A DNA stretch of 64,000 nt from the NCBI RefSeq assembly GCF_024360925.2, contig NZ_CP113517.1:248001-312000 (forward strand), in the 5' to 3' direction. The notes under the pieces are model-generated. The model saw nothing but the letters and a program-made list of their open reading frames with translations, had not been told where the DNA came from and made no database searches. Numbering within the stretch: the stretch's first letter is position 1; each line of letters opens with the position of its first letter. Shown one piece after another: positions 28,987-33,150 of this stretch. Both the position numbers and the translations under genes were made by a program. The stretch comes from Methylomonas rapida. GTDB lineage: Bacteria; Pseudomonadota; Gammaproteobacteria; Methylococcales; Methylomonadaceae.

Positions 28987-29002
28987 TGGCACAAATTTTG
29001 AT
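28987..29002 (+). promoter_or_regulatory. Sigma-54-type promoter (-24/-12), candidate
   Basis: TGGCAC-AAATT-TTGAT matches the RpoN consensus TGGCAC-N5-TTGC(A/T) with one mismatch (A for C at the -12 GC). Transcription would start near 29013, placing a 245-base leader with the riboswitch ahead of the PEP-CTERM gene. Many PEP-CTERM systems are reported to be under RpoN and the PrsK/PrsR pair, which fits. No activator gene is in the window. The rest of 28546-28986 holds no convincing gene. Confidence 0.5.
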
Positions 29003-29104
29003 TATTCAAAAAGTAACAGTATTACAACATTTGAATATTGTTAGGAGTGACTACGCATCGCAAGTCGGCAGGGTGATGAAAAATCCTTGCTGACCTGAAT
29101 GCTT

Positions 29105-29221
29105 TCACTTATCGCCAACCTCGTTGCGAAACGAGGCTCGGAAAGTCACGGGTCTTGCCGACGATCAAGACAGCCGGATTGCCCTCATGTGATAGGAGGG
29201 GCGGCCCAGGCCGCGTATCAC
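29105..29221 (+). promoter_or_regulatory. GEMM-I (cyclic di-GMP-I) riboswitch with competing hairpin, candidate
   Basis: The aptamer parts are in order. Stem CTCGTT (29119-29124), tetraloop GCGA and AACGAG give a perfect six-pair hairpin with a GNRA loop. The joining segment GGAAAGTCACGG comes next. A second stem, GTCTTG (29152-29157) with CAAGAC (29166-29171), is closed by AGCCGGATTGCC, the conserved 3' strand of GEMM-I. The outer stem pairs TTATC (29109-29113) with GATAG (29191-29195). GTGATA (29189-29194) can instead pair with TATCAC (29216-29221) around GCGGCC-CA-GGCCGC, a mutually exclusive hairpin. The joining region deviates from the usual GACGCAAAGCC, so ligand binding is not certain. 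Confidence 0.7.
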
Positions 29222-29257
29222 GGAATGCATTCACTACAACATAACGGACTAAATTTC

Positions 29258-30400
29258 ATGCAAGTACATTTTCAATTGACAGCCATTGCGCTCTTACTGG
29301 GGGCAAGCGGTATCTCTCAGGCCGCCTTGACCACGACCAGCGGACCGATCAACTTCACTGGCTCTGCTTCGGTTACGGCCGCGCAGGATTATCCAAACGA
29401 TCCCTATGCCAGCGGCCCGAAATCGCTAACCAATACCAACGACGGCGCAAGCGCGGCCACCGTGTCGGTAGCCCGGTTCAACGCCGCCATGGGGGTTTTG
29501 ACCGGCGTCGATCTGCAACTGAACTCCAACCGCACGCAATCCATTTCCGGTTCCGGTTATAAGGGCAACGGTGAAGGCAAAACCGTGAGTGGAAGCGGCG
29601 CCAGTTCCGCCGCCCTGGTCGCAGCCGGCGCCCAGATCCCGTTGGCTCCCGCGATTTCCCTGGAGGGCGGCTCCTGCTCATTGGCGATGGGTAAAACCGG
29701 AAATATCTCATGCAACTGGGGGCCATCCACGTCAGAAGCCACCGCGACTCATGGCACTGCCAGCGTGGACAGCAGCAACCTGGACGCCTATGCGGGCACA
29801 GGCAGCGTCGACGCGACTTTGACGCTACCCAGTCTGTCGGCCACGGTCACCCAATCCAGTTATAAGGGCCAGGCCAGCGGCTCATCCGCGACGTATACCG
29901 TCGATTGGTCCGGTACCTTACAGGCCAGCTACAGCTACTTGCTGCACGCCTTGGCTTCTTTCGACACCGACGCCGAAACCACCAGCCTGACCCTGGATTT
30001 CGGCAATGTTGCGCAAAACAGCACCGCGTCCTTGAATTTTAGGTTGTTCAACCTGGCCAATGCCGACCGTATCGGCCTGGACCTGGATAGCGTCATCGCC
30101 AGCGGCGATGCCGGGGCATTCGATACCGGCCTGTCGGCATTTGCCGACCTGGCCCAGGGTGGCAGCCAAAGCTTCATCGCCAATTTGCTGACAGCCAACG
30201 CTGGCAGTTTCAGCGCGCAATACCTGCTGAACCTGTCCGATGCGGATTTCGGCGCGGGCAGCACGCGTCAAAACTATCAACTGACCCTGAATCTGATCGG
30301 CAACGTCACGGCGGTACCGCTACCTGGCGCTGTCTGGTTGTTCGGTAGCGCCTTGCTGGGCTTTGTTGGCATCGGCCGCCGTAAGCGTAGCCTCGCTTAA
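29258..30400 (+). CDS. PEP-CTERM sorting domain protein, secreted
   Basis: 380 residues. A signal peptide ends near ASGISQAALT. The body is rich in Ser, Thr, Ala and Gly. A C-terminal beta-sandwich resembles choice-of-anchor domains (SLTLDFGNVAQNSTASLNFR and GSFSAQYLLNLSDADFG). The tail is a complete sorting signal: VPLPGAVWLFGSALLGFVG then an Arg/Lys cluster, the target of an exosortase (none is encoded here). I start at the ATG at 29258, which gives a proper signal peptide; the frame is open upstream but that part is the riboswitch. Likely an envelope or exopolysaccharide-matrix protein. Confidence 0.85.
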   Translation: MQVHFQLTAIALLLGASGISQAALTTTSGPINFTGSASVTAAQDYPNDPYASGPKSLTNTNDGASAATVSVARFNAAMGVLTGVDLQLNSNRTQSISGSGYKGNGEGKTVSGSGASSAALVAAGAQIPLAPAISLEGGSCSLAMGKTGNISCNWGPSTSEATATHGTASVDSSNLDAYAGTGSVDATLTLPSLSATVTQSSYKGQASGSSATYTVDWSGTLQASYSYLLHALASFDTDAETTSLTLDFGNVAQNSTASLNFRLFNLANADRIGLDLDSVIASGDAGAFDTGLSAFADLAQGGSQSFIANLLTANAGSFSAQYLLNLSDADFGAGSTRQNYQLTLNLIGNVTAVPLPGAVWLFGSALLGFVGIGRRKRSLA

Positions 30401-30461
30401 AAATCAATGCAGGGCGGAGCGGAACAGGAGGTTCGGCTCTCCCCTCTATTCGAGACCTGTC

Positions 30462-32417
30462 ATGAAAACCCTAAAAATAATCATGCTGACATTGGCGACT
30501 TTGTTGCCAGTATCGGTCGTAGTCGCCGGGACCTTTGTCGCGCCGCCGGCATCCGGCGGCAACCCAGCATTTACCACGACGCATTTTTCCGGCTCGCAAA
30601 ATTGCGCTCTTTGCCATAACGGCATCAAGGACAAAAACGGCGCCGATGTGTCTATCGTCACCGACTGGTCATCGAGCATGATGGCCAATTCGGCCCGCGA
30701 TCCTTTCTGGCGCGCCAAGGTGCGCAGCGAAATCGCCAAGCATCCGCAACTGGAAGCGCTGATCAACGACAAATGCAGCAAATGCCATGCGCCGATGGCC
30801 AGTTACGAGGCCAAGAAAGACGGCTCGCTGGCCACGCAAACGCTTTTCGACGGCGGCATCCTGACTGCAGGGCATCCCAGGCATGACGCCGCGATGGACG
30901 GTGTAAGCTGCACCTTATGCCACCAAATTCCGAACTCAAGCACCTTGGGCACATTGCCGGCGATGTCTGGCAATTTCAACATCAATACCACCAAGACCAT
31001 CTATGGCCCATTCGGCGGTCCCGGCGACACCGCGATTTTCGCCAATCCGATGATCAACAACACCGGCTACACACCGGTCTATAGCGCGCATATCAAGGAG
31101 TCCAAGCTTTGCGCATCCTGCCATAACCTGAAAACGCCTTACGTCGATGAAGACGGCAAGGTGTTGAGCACGACGCCGGAAAGCGAGTTTCCGGAACAAA
31201 CGCCCTACATGGAGTGGGAGCACAGCAGCTACGTCAATCAGAAAAGTTGCCAAGGCTGCCATATGAGCCGAACCGACGGCGTGATCATCACCACCCGGCC
31301 GCCCTGGTACAGCGTGCAGCGCAACAACTTCGCGATTCATGACTTGGTGGGCGCGAACAAGTTGATGCTGGACATATTGAACAACAACAAAACCCAGCTC
31401 GGCGTGTTGTCCAACAACTTTGCCGAAACCATCGCCAAAACCGACACGATGCTGAAAAGTGCCGCCACGGTGAGCGTCATCGATCAGCAGTCAACCGCAG
31501 GCACGCTGGATTTCACGTTGCAAATCAATAGCACTACCGGCCACAAGCTGCCGAGCGCTTATCCGTCCAGACGCGCGCACTTACATGTCGTCGTACTGAA
31601 TGAACAGAATCAGGCGGTGTGGGAATCCGGCAAGGTCAATGCCGACGGCAGCATAGAAGGTGTGGATGCCGACGAGCAAGAAGGCGTTTTCGAGCCGCAT
31701 TACGACCTGATCACGTCACAGGATCAGGTACAAGTCTACGAAGCCATCATGGGCAATCACCTGGGCGAAGTGACTTATACCCTGCTGCGCGGCAAGGAAT
31801 ACCTGAAGGACAACCGCATCCTGCCGGCCGGCTTCAACAAGGCCAGCTCGCCAGCCGATGTGCGCGTGGTCGGCGAGGCTTTGGCGGACGGCAATTTCGT
31901 CGGCGGCAGCGATCAAATTCGTTATCGCATTGCCGACTTGCCGGCCGGGAACTACACGGTCAAGGCCGAACTGGTGTACCAGACCTTGTCGCATGCCTTC
32001 GCCCGGGATTTGTTCGAGGACACCGCCACGGCCGAAGTCGTCGACTTCAAGACCATGTTCGATGCCTCCAGCCAAAAATCCAGTGTGATCGCCAGTGCCG
32101 AGTTCAACGAAACAATCGCGGCGCCAGCGATCGATAGCGATGGCGACGGCGTGCCGGACAATCAAGACAACTGCACCTTGGTCGCGAACGCCAACCAACG
32201 CGACACCAATGGCGACGGTTACGGCAATCTCTGCGACCCCGATTTCAATCAGAACAAGGTGGTCGATCCGCTGGATCTCAACACGCTGAAAGCCAAACTG
32301 GGCCTGGTTTCACCCAACCACGACCTCAATGGCAACGGCATCGTCGATCCTATGGATTTGAATATTGCAAAAACCTATCTGGGTAAGCCGCCAGGGCCCG
32401 CCGGTTTGCTGCCTTGA
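30462..32417 (+). CDS. Secreted five-heme c-type cytochrome with TSP3 and dockerin-like C-terminus
   Basis: 651 residues. Signal peptide at residues 1-23. Five CxxCH motifs: CALCH (48-52), CSKCH (105-109), CTLCH (150-154), CASCH (217-221) and CQGCH (263-267), each able to bind a covalent heme. Residues ~300-545 look like a beta-rich region without hemes. From about 558 a thrombospondin type-3 calcium repeat (DSDGDGVPDNQDNC, then DTNGDGYGNLCDPD) leads into two dockerin-like repeats at about 594-614 (DFNQNKVVDPLDLNTLKAKL) and 621-641 (DLNGNGIVDPMDLNIAKTYL). Probably an extracellular or periplasmic electron carrier held by its C-terminus. It lies 61 bp after one PEP-CTERM gene and 92 bp before another. 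Confidence 0.85.
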   Translation: MKTLKIIMLTLATLLPVSVVVAGTFVAPPASGGNPAFTTTHFSGSQNCALCHNGIKDKNGADVSIVTDWSSSMMANSARDPFWRAKVRSEIAKHPQLEALINDKCSKCHAPMASYEAKKDGSLATQTLFDGGILTAGHPRHDAAMDGVSCTLCHQIPNSSTLGTLPAMSGNFNINTTKTIYGPFGGPGDTAIFANPMINNTGYTPVYSAHIKESKLCASCHNLKTPYVDEDGKVLSTTPESEFPEQTPYMEWEHSSYVNQKSCQGCHMSRTDGVIITTRPPWYSVQRNNFAIHDLVGANKLMLDILNNNKTQLGVLSNNFAETIAKTDTMLKSAATVSVIDQQSTAGTLDFTLQINSTTGHKLPSAYPSRRAHLHVVVLNEQNQAVWESGKVNADGSIEGVDADEQEGVFEPHYDLITSQDQVQVYEAIMGNHLGEVTYTLLRGKEYLKDNRILPAGFNKASSPADVRVVGEALADGNFVGGSDQIRYRIADLPAGNYTVKAELVYQTLSHAFARDLFEDTATAEVVDFKTMFDASSQKSSVIASAEFNETIAAPAIDSDGDGVPDNQDNCTLVANANQRDTNGDGYGNLCDPDFNQNKVVDPLDLNTLKAKLGLVSPNHDLNGNGIVDPMDLNIAKTYLGKPPGPAGLLP

Positions 32418-32509
32418 TCCATTGAAAGGCTAGCGCGACAAGGATGTTGCGTGAACCTGCAAGACATGAATCGTTACCCAATACCCAAAACATTGACTGG
32501 AGATTTAAT

Positions 32510-33097
32510 ATGCATAACCAAAACACTCGTCGTTTTTCCCTGTTCTGCGGCCTGCTGACGCTGCTTTTATTTGGCCCCCAGGCTTCGGCCTCGCTGACCA
32601 ACGTGGTCAGGTTTAGTCAGGGCGACCATCTTGCCGTAGCGAGTGGCGAACTACTGACGATCGATCTGATCGGCGAAAATTTCACCTTGGCCCCCGATGG
32701 CGCGGCCTTCTCATTGCAGTGGGACCCTGGCGTGCTGAGTTATGTTTCCAGCGCGGTTGCCAATCCACCCTGGGAATCTTCATTCATCAATGAAGCACAC
32801 GCGGCTTCGGGACTTATCGACTACGCCTTCATGAGCATCACCAACGGTAGCAATGCGGGTTCCGATTTCGGCATCGCCCGCTTTACCTTCAGCGTACTCG
32901 GCAATGCAGGCGATATAAGCGCATTGGCTCTGGGCAACGATGCCTATAGCATCGGCTTCCTAAAAGGCGTGACCGGACTCGATGTCAATTTTGTCAATAG
33001 CCAGGTACAAGTCGTGCCGTTACCAGCCGCTGCCTGGATGTTTGGCGCCGGCTTAGTCGGCATGGCAGGCTCGATGAAACGCCGTCGTCCGAAATAA
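32510..33097 (+). CDS. PEP-CTERM protein with cohesin-like domain
   Basis: 195 residues. Signal peptide to about ASASLTN. The body has the spacing of a cohesin-type beta-sandwich: GELLTIDLIGENFTLAPDG, AAFSLQWDPGVLSYVSS, a polar loop, then FGIARFTFSVLG. The tail VVPLPAAAWMFGAGLVGMAG plus KRRR is a standard PEP-CTERM sorting signal, so the protein should be processed by an exosortase. The ATG at 32510 has TGGAG upstream. The cohesin assignment rests on pattern, not on a search. Its position right after a dockerin-bearing cytochrome makes the pairing attractive. A terminator follows. Confidence 0.75.
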   Translation: MHNQNTRRFSLFCGLLTLLLFGPQASASLTNVVRFSQGDHLAVASGELLTIDLIGENFTLAPDGAAFSLQWDPGVLSYVSSAVANPPWESSFINEAHAASGLIDYAFMSITNGSNAGSDFGIARFTFSVLGNAGDISALALGNDAYSIGFLKGVTGLDVNFVNSQVQVVPLPAAAWMFGAGLVGMAGSMKRRRPK

Positions 33098-33123
33098 GTC
33101 GTCGATTCGGCATGGACTCACGC

Positions 33124-33150
33124 AAACCCCGGCCAACCCGGGGTTTTTTG
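33124..33150 (+). terminator. Rho-independent terminator after the cytochrome/PEP-CTERM unit
   Basis: AACCCCGG-CCAA-CCCGGGGTT followed by TTTTGC: an eight- to nine-pair GC-rich stem, four-base loop and T-run. It closes the 29.0-33.1 kb unit before trmB. Confidence 0.85.

Follow-up and report, generated by a model that had tools for sequence, protein, structure and literature searches.

In the cellulosomal type I systems of Clostridium and Acetivibrio, exported cargo proteins end in a dockerin made of two calcium-loop-helix repeats, which pairs with a cohesin, and the anchors of these complexes carry S-layer homology (SLH) or LPXTG elements. A three-gene locus of Methylomonas rapida, encoding the exported-looking proteins P1, P2 and P3, resembles these systems in part. 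It lies in a 64,000-nucleotide stretch of contig NZ_CP113517.1 (positions 248,001–312,000; hereafter the window, in whose own numbering coordinates are given). P2 (30462–32417, forward strand; 651 aa) is a five-heme c-type cytochrome with a C-terminal TSP3 region and a putative dockerin of the duplicated type, and P3 (32510–33097, forward strand; 195 aa) has the predicted fold of a cohesin. Unlike in cellulosomes, the cargo is a cytochrome and the anchor candidate P3 has an exosortase-type tail. P3 moreover has a single cohesin-fold domain and gave the only cohesin-like match in its genome (profiles A4 and A8), at odds with a multi-cohesin scaffoldin.

PEP-CTERM proteins are as a rule associated with exopolysaccharide. 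They share with P3 the type of sorting tail, and the genome of the window encodes two exosortases (PF09721, E 1.4e-76 and 1.6e-71); P3 differs from them in a body whose cohesin fold could carry a second protein, and in a tail that scored under the cut-offs of the sorting models. Non-cellulosomal cohesins and dockerins are also similar, as they function outside cellulose degradation, and the cohesins of Archaeoglobus fulgidus (2xdh) and Clostridium perfringens (2jh2 and 2w1n, glycoside-hydrolase modules) were among the fold matches of P3. To our knowledge, no PEP-CTERM tail or cytochrome cargo is known among them. They are reportedly the subject of a review by Peer et al. from 2009.

Dockerin and cohesin proteins are known from anaerobic methanotrophic (ANME) archaea and partner sulfate reducers (PMC9012536, PMC5244752, PMC10553843), and here too they occur in organisms with multiheme cytochromes. 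Passages of these papers name ABC substrate-binding proteins and S-layer proteins as dockerin cargos beside multi-cohesin proteins (PMC9012536), and raise, as a hypothesis, a part in cell contact or in adhesion of multiheme cytochromes (PMC5244752); a cohesin on an exosortase-type anchor that pairs with a cytochrome is not described in the relevant passages. Searches of the open-licence literature that combined PEP-CTERM with either dockerin or cohesin, or with the two together, returned nothing, a result that covers open-licence texts only and so does not establish that the combination is unpublished, and exosortase with dockerin led to passages of PMC5244752 only. The initial annotation had proposed that docking an electron-transfer protein onto an exosortase-processed anchor would be a new use. 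Within the open-licence literature this held for the combination of PEP-CTERM, cohesin and dockerin, but a link between cohesin/dockerin proteins and multiheme cytochromes had already been raised as a hypothesis for ANME archaea in passages of PMC5244752.

The locus as a whole is best explained, with a probability of roughly three in four, by P2 and P3 forming a matched dockerin-cohesin pair in which P3 would be an exosortase-type anchor and P2 its tethered partner. The mature domain of P3 (32588–33013, forward strand) was modelled by AlphaFold2 with a predicted local distance difference test (pLDDT) score of 88.8, and the 50 Protein Data Bank (PDB) matches listed in the fold comparison were all cohesin-bearing (best E 5.8e-9). 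The body of P3 had earlier been read as a cohesin beta-sandwich, and the model bore this out; a predicted structure lacking the fold would have spoken against it. The top five PDB matches of a wider profile (A2) were likewise all cohesins (E 2.8e-5 or better), and hhalign linked the P3-family group to the wider cohesin-like group at E 6e-13. In that wider set, nine of 26 proteins matched Pfam Cohesin at E ≤0.1, and L117 reached 33.2 bits when scanned singly. Cohesin identity is well supported for P3 at the level of the predicted structure. The protein ends in a candidate sorting tail (33014–33094, forward strand), with a VPLPA motif, a hydrophobic span and a basic end, as read from the translation.

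P2 contained five CXXCH heme motifs (CALCH, CSKCH, CTLCH, CASCH, and CQGCH) and matched Pfam Cytochrome_C7 over the cut-off in the protein scan. Its TSP3 calcium-repeat region (32133–32240, forward strand; residues 558–593) matched COMP/thrombospondin structures at E 6e-19, with residues 558–579 reaching 29.0 bits for Pfam TSP_3 (cut-off 25), and two dockerin repeats followed (32241–32381, forward strand; residues 594–640). Read directly, 12 of 21 residues were common to both repeats. Dockerin_1 scored 21.0 bits in the protein scan (cut-off 22.9) and 24.1 bits in a six-frame search of the genome, and 27.9 bits in the orthologue L121. Two calcium-loop-helix repeats of ∼22 residues, the hallmark of type I dockerins, were shared by all 12 aligned sequences. 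A profile of the P2-family tail (12 rows) strongly matched thrombospondin TSP3 and one solved dockerin (2y3n_B, E 1.7e-4), followed by seven more dockerin chains at E 0.07–0.69, non-significant singly. These comparisons support a dockerin assignment for the tail, and the heme motifs, TSP3 repeat and dockerin-like repeats described in the initial annotation were all found, as were the sorting tails and the gene order. An extra N-terminal domain of ∼170 aa, alike by eye, was seen in nine of 11 P2 orthologues inspected and was DUF642/CBM_4_9-like in the one scanned (L121:4366-6819); P2 of the window (30462–30560 region) and that of SURF-2 are without it.

Co-occurrence was surveyed in 237 genomes of the family, that of the window included. 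P2 matches at 1e-10 or better were present in 64 of them, tail-only matches counted in, and P3 matches at E 1e-23 or better in 13. The genomes with a dockerin-tailed P2 (13 of 237) were the same 13 that held a strong P3 match, with one P3 interrupted. In 36 genomes, counted by eye with G103 set aside and 3 partial, the P2 core match ended before the tail. All of the 19 that were fetched ended no more than ∼10 residues past the core match, and none had a cohesin-like open reading frame (ORF) at the locus. The failure of homologues to co-occur, which had been named as grounds for abandoning the pairing, was therefore not observed. An anchor swap, in which dockerin-less P2 would bring its own anchor, was rejected for these 19, as no sorting tail followed the core.

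Two of the genomes surveyed deserve separate mention. In Methylomonas sp. WSC-7 (G120), which retains P1 and P2 (loci L071, L072, L129), P3 is split into parts ∼38 kb apart (G120:C3:38733-39107 and 77283-77459). The P2 homologue of G103 (L096) has another dockerin-like tail without TSP3, which lies under the Pfam threshold of E 0.001 and is 52–57% identical over 54 residues to the dockerins of L149 and L152. Its neighbour is a different PEP-CTERM-like protein, cohesin-like by a profile built without it (E 1.3e-7, best domain 1.1e-5), and the two may constitute a second, differently matched pair.

The association extended beyond P2. All 28 other listed loci with P2-like dockerin tails were fetched and screened with a cohesin profile in leave-one-locus-out fashion; 19 had a same-strand cohesin-like ORF within 611 bp, in each case with a PEP-CTERM-like tail by eye. 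Eight of the 28 (L100–L107) had been chosen with a weak nearby P3 match in mind, and excluding them gives 11 of 20. Across the 237 genomes, Pfam Dockerin_1 (E 1e-3) yielded 118 matches in 70 genomes and the 22-row cohesin profile A8 (threshold 1e-5) had 99 in 62. Fifty-six of the 118 dockerins had a cohesin-like match no further than 4 kb away, against ∼0.4 expected under uniform placement, and all 56 pairs were on the same strand, with the cohesin downstream in 43 and upstream in 13. Both domains occurred in 53 genomes, dockerin only in 17, cohesin only in nine and neither in 158 (Fisher 2e-28, uncorrected for relatedness). These matches are at the domain level, with open frames checked for ten (L144–L153): nine had a cohesin-like frame of 200–242 aa, eight of which showed a PEP-CTERM-like motif near the end (that of L152 being equivocal), and L153, which had none, was dropped as a cargo. 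Among 369 genomes sampled across the class, cohesin-like matches (1e-6 or better) turned up in 23 in addition to that of the window; eight of the 25 matches in those genomes had a same-strand Dockerin_1 within 4 kb (pairs by eye), and 10 of the 23 genomes had no Dockerin_1 match. In one of these eight cases, a 1425-aa open frame (G413:C89:27695-28495) held the cohesin-like and the dockerin match together, and could possibly be a self-linking or chain-forming protein. Co-occurrence and adjacency of the two domains are far beyond chance, as the proposed pairing implied, but the pairing is not special to cytochromes, because other cargos carry dockerins beside cohesin-like genes as well.

Pairwise distances among 12 trio loci (all but that of G120) were compared with those of P3, values in brackets being without the most distant locus and without two. 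The dockerin followed P3 closely (r 0.89; 0.84, 0.82), TSP3 much less (r 0.44; 0.21, 0.20), and P2 core windows gave r 0.24–0.39 (0.05–0.25, 0.01–0.36). With the core controlled, the whole P2 tail correlated with P3 at r 0.82 (r 0.77 for 11 loci), and the permutation p of 5e-5 is the smallest value that the test can return.

Several observations weigh against a matched pair. The same step was present at four-fold synonymous sites (dockerin 0.64–0.70, TSP3 0.16–0.20; few sites, 18–19 and 11), which indicates co-inheritance of a linked block and led residue-level coevolution of dockerin and cohesin to be set aside. The simplest reading is that the dockerin and the cohesin gene were inherited or exchanged as one block with an edge near the TSP3-dockerin boundary, which fits a matched pair without proving the predicted binding. 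In a tree of 33 P2 cores, the 13 dockerin-tailed forms made up one clade (support 100/99), so the 13-of-13 match amounts to about one evolutionary gain, and its reading as 13 independent events was rejected; the family-wide adjacency counts are the more independent evidence. P3 itself reached only E 0.0083 and 16.8 bits for Pfam Cohesin (PF00963), under the cut-off of 24.1; the same model gave no match in the whole genome even at E 10, and profiles of the P3 family only (A1, A3) found no cohesin in the PDB. The tail of P3 fell short of the sorting models (TIGR03370, 23.7 vs 25.35 bits; PF07589, 14.0 vs 20.7 bits). The Pfam check suggested in the initial annotation fell on either side of the cut-off for Dockerin_1 (below it in the protein scan, above it in the genome search) and stayed below cut-off for Cohesin and PEP-CTERM. 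Structure prediction of the whole of P2 (12 rows) reached a pLDDT of only 39.8, and the model was not used.

The adjacency has its exceptions too. No cohesin-like ORF was found at nine of the 28 loci with P2-like dockerins; five of these (L110, L114, L134, L135, and L142) are on short contigs or abut the end of a contig on one or both sides, and two (L112 and L143) encode long RHS-type proteins, while L109 and L136 have no such excuse. Family-wide, 62 of the 118 dockerins had no cohesin-like match within 4 kb, and the 17 dockerin-only genomes had none at all. Profile A8 was built in part from dockerin-adjacent genes, and the analysis was therefore repeated after dropping the rows of that profile, the other trio loci and a single near-copy; of the 71 cohesin-like matches left, 34 (in 31 genomes) still had a Dockerin_1 no more than 4 kb away, invariably on the same strand.

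The rival that survives best concerns the role of P2 and leaves docking untouched. P2 could be a periplasmic heme enzyme that the tether only positions, a tentative alternative with somewhat less than even odds. Other members of the family encode the P2 core with neither dockerin nor anchor, and scans with Pfam, NCBIfam and structure-database profiles identified no known electron-conduit orthologue. Electron transfer by P2 is suggested by its hemes only. Against the enzyme reading stand a weak, sub-threshold similarity of P2 to MtrC/MtrF domains II/IV, and the L100 protein, a nine-heme cytochrome with BACON domains that scored over the MtrC/MtrF cut-off and carries a similar dockerin beside a cohesin-like gene.

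A second possibility, compatible with P2-P3 docking and on present evidence doubtful, is that P3 is a shared anchor for further dockerin proteins, such as an RHS/YD-repeat protein of the same genome (G000:C1:3306896). One cohesin-like match faces two Dockerin_1 matches over the cut-off in that genome, the RHS tail region and the P2 tail share 60% identity, and G129 has a second dockerin protein whose tail is 82% identical to that of P2. Yet the RHS gene lies far from P3 with no cohesin-like ORF in the surrounding 16 kb, its dockerin is internal rather than terminal, and a more divergent second cohesin could escape the profiles. The RHS/YD-repeat protein measures ∼1551 aa (L143:8102-12757; ∼3.306 Mb) and has internal TSP3 and dockerin; a similar long protein occurs in G114:C89 (L112), and the fetched stretches of both loci held no cohesin-like ORF. 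The exported G129 protein (L110:7013-8734, G129:C293) has no Pfam match besides TSP3 and dockerin. The stretch fetched around its gene, truncated on the upstream side where the contig stops, held no cohesin-like ORF, and the protein may use P3 jointly with P2. Three or four adjacent TSP3-dockerin genes were found in each of L106, L108, L114, and L135; L106 and L108 each include one cohesin-like gene, and in L106 and L114 the dockerins are near the N-terminus. Such runs suggest several cargos per anchor.

It is improbable that P3 has retained a cohesin fold yet serves to bind sugar or matrix, with the P2 tail a calcium stalk and the genes together as exported matrix proteins: the low Pfam Cohesin score, the association of PEP-CTERM proteins with exopolysaccharide and the extra N-terminal domain of many P2 orthologues agree with this, but the pairing tracks the dockerin across very different cargos, always on one strand in adjacent cases, the 19 dockerin-less P2 loci are devoid of the cohesin-like gene, and no carbohydrate-binding module was among the 50 matches listed in either of two fold comparisons.

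Upstream of the pair, P1 (29258–30400, forward strand; 380 aa) is a PEP-CTERM-like exported protein with a choice-of-anchor E/D-like body. NCBIfam choice_anch_E matched it at 28.4 bits (cut-off 23.8), choice_anch_D and VPLPA-CTERM matched below threshold, and its C-terminal tail is PEP-CTERM-like. A P1 orthologue was upstream in 12 of the 13 trio loci, the contig of the 13th ending before that point, and in eight of the 12 an extra PEP-CTERM-like gene of ∼210–290 aa, absent from the window, lay between P1 and P2. The intergenic gaps are 61 bp (P1-P2) and 92 bp (P2-P3), and the region as delimited starts at 28987, ∼270 bp 5′ of P1. A terminator-like stem-loop with a T run (33124–33146, forward strand) follows P3; its assignment rests on this position and a 9-pair stem, because the region has eight terminator-like sites against a shuffle mean of 5.8. 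The same scan of the region found no sigma-70-like promoter. Three exported-looking proteins in a row closed by a terminator, as first described, were thus recovered from the ORFs and the terminator scan, with signal peptides of all three judged by eye. Megablast of the region's DNA against plasmid records gave no match.

Docking of P2 onto an exosortase-processed P3, non-covalent and calcium-dependent, is the most likely mechanism suggested by the sequences. Both proteins would be exported by Sec, and P2 would receive its five hemes in the periplasm. The hydrophobic PEP-CTERM-like tail would retain P3 in the membrane until cleavage by one of the two exosortases, after which, by the known pathway, P3 would pass to the cell surface or the exopolysaccharide matrix. 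Calcium would fold the TSP3-dockerin tail of P2, which would plug into the P3 cohesin and so hold the cytochrome at the anchored site.

More widely in these methanotrophs, a small cohesin-fold protein, PEP-CTERM-like wherever its tail was inspected and visible, stands beside a dockerin-bearing exported cargo. Besides the L100 cytochrome, the cargos with a dockerin beside a cohesin-like gene include a PhoX-like phosphatase (L102), a peptidase S11-like protein (L111), an Exo_endo_phos nuclease (L144), an M6 peptidase (L147) and a Vps10/BNR protein (L149). With cargos this varied, the P2 cytochrome belongs to a broader scheme of display. We lean slightly towards a family-wide modular display, in which small cohesins with PEP-CTERM-type tails, each with its partner gene alongside, would serve as exosortase-processed sockets for dockerin cargos, five- and nine-heme cytochromes among them, and matched alleles would travel as a block, keeping specificity while the cargo changes.

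If true, this would unite cohesin-dockerin docking with PEP-CTERM/exosortase sorting, each well known but separate from the other, and would assign a set of short PEP-CTERM proteins a function that can be tested; as the partners are adjacent, each pair is open to a simple binding assay. It would also suggest a route by which cytochromes and enzymes could be fixed to the surface or matrix of methanotrophs, and the cytochrome cargos of such a modular display would make that surface or matrix redox-active.
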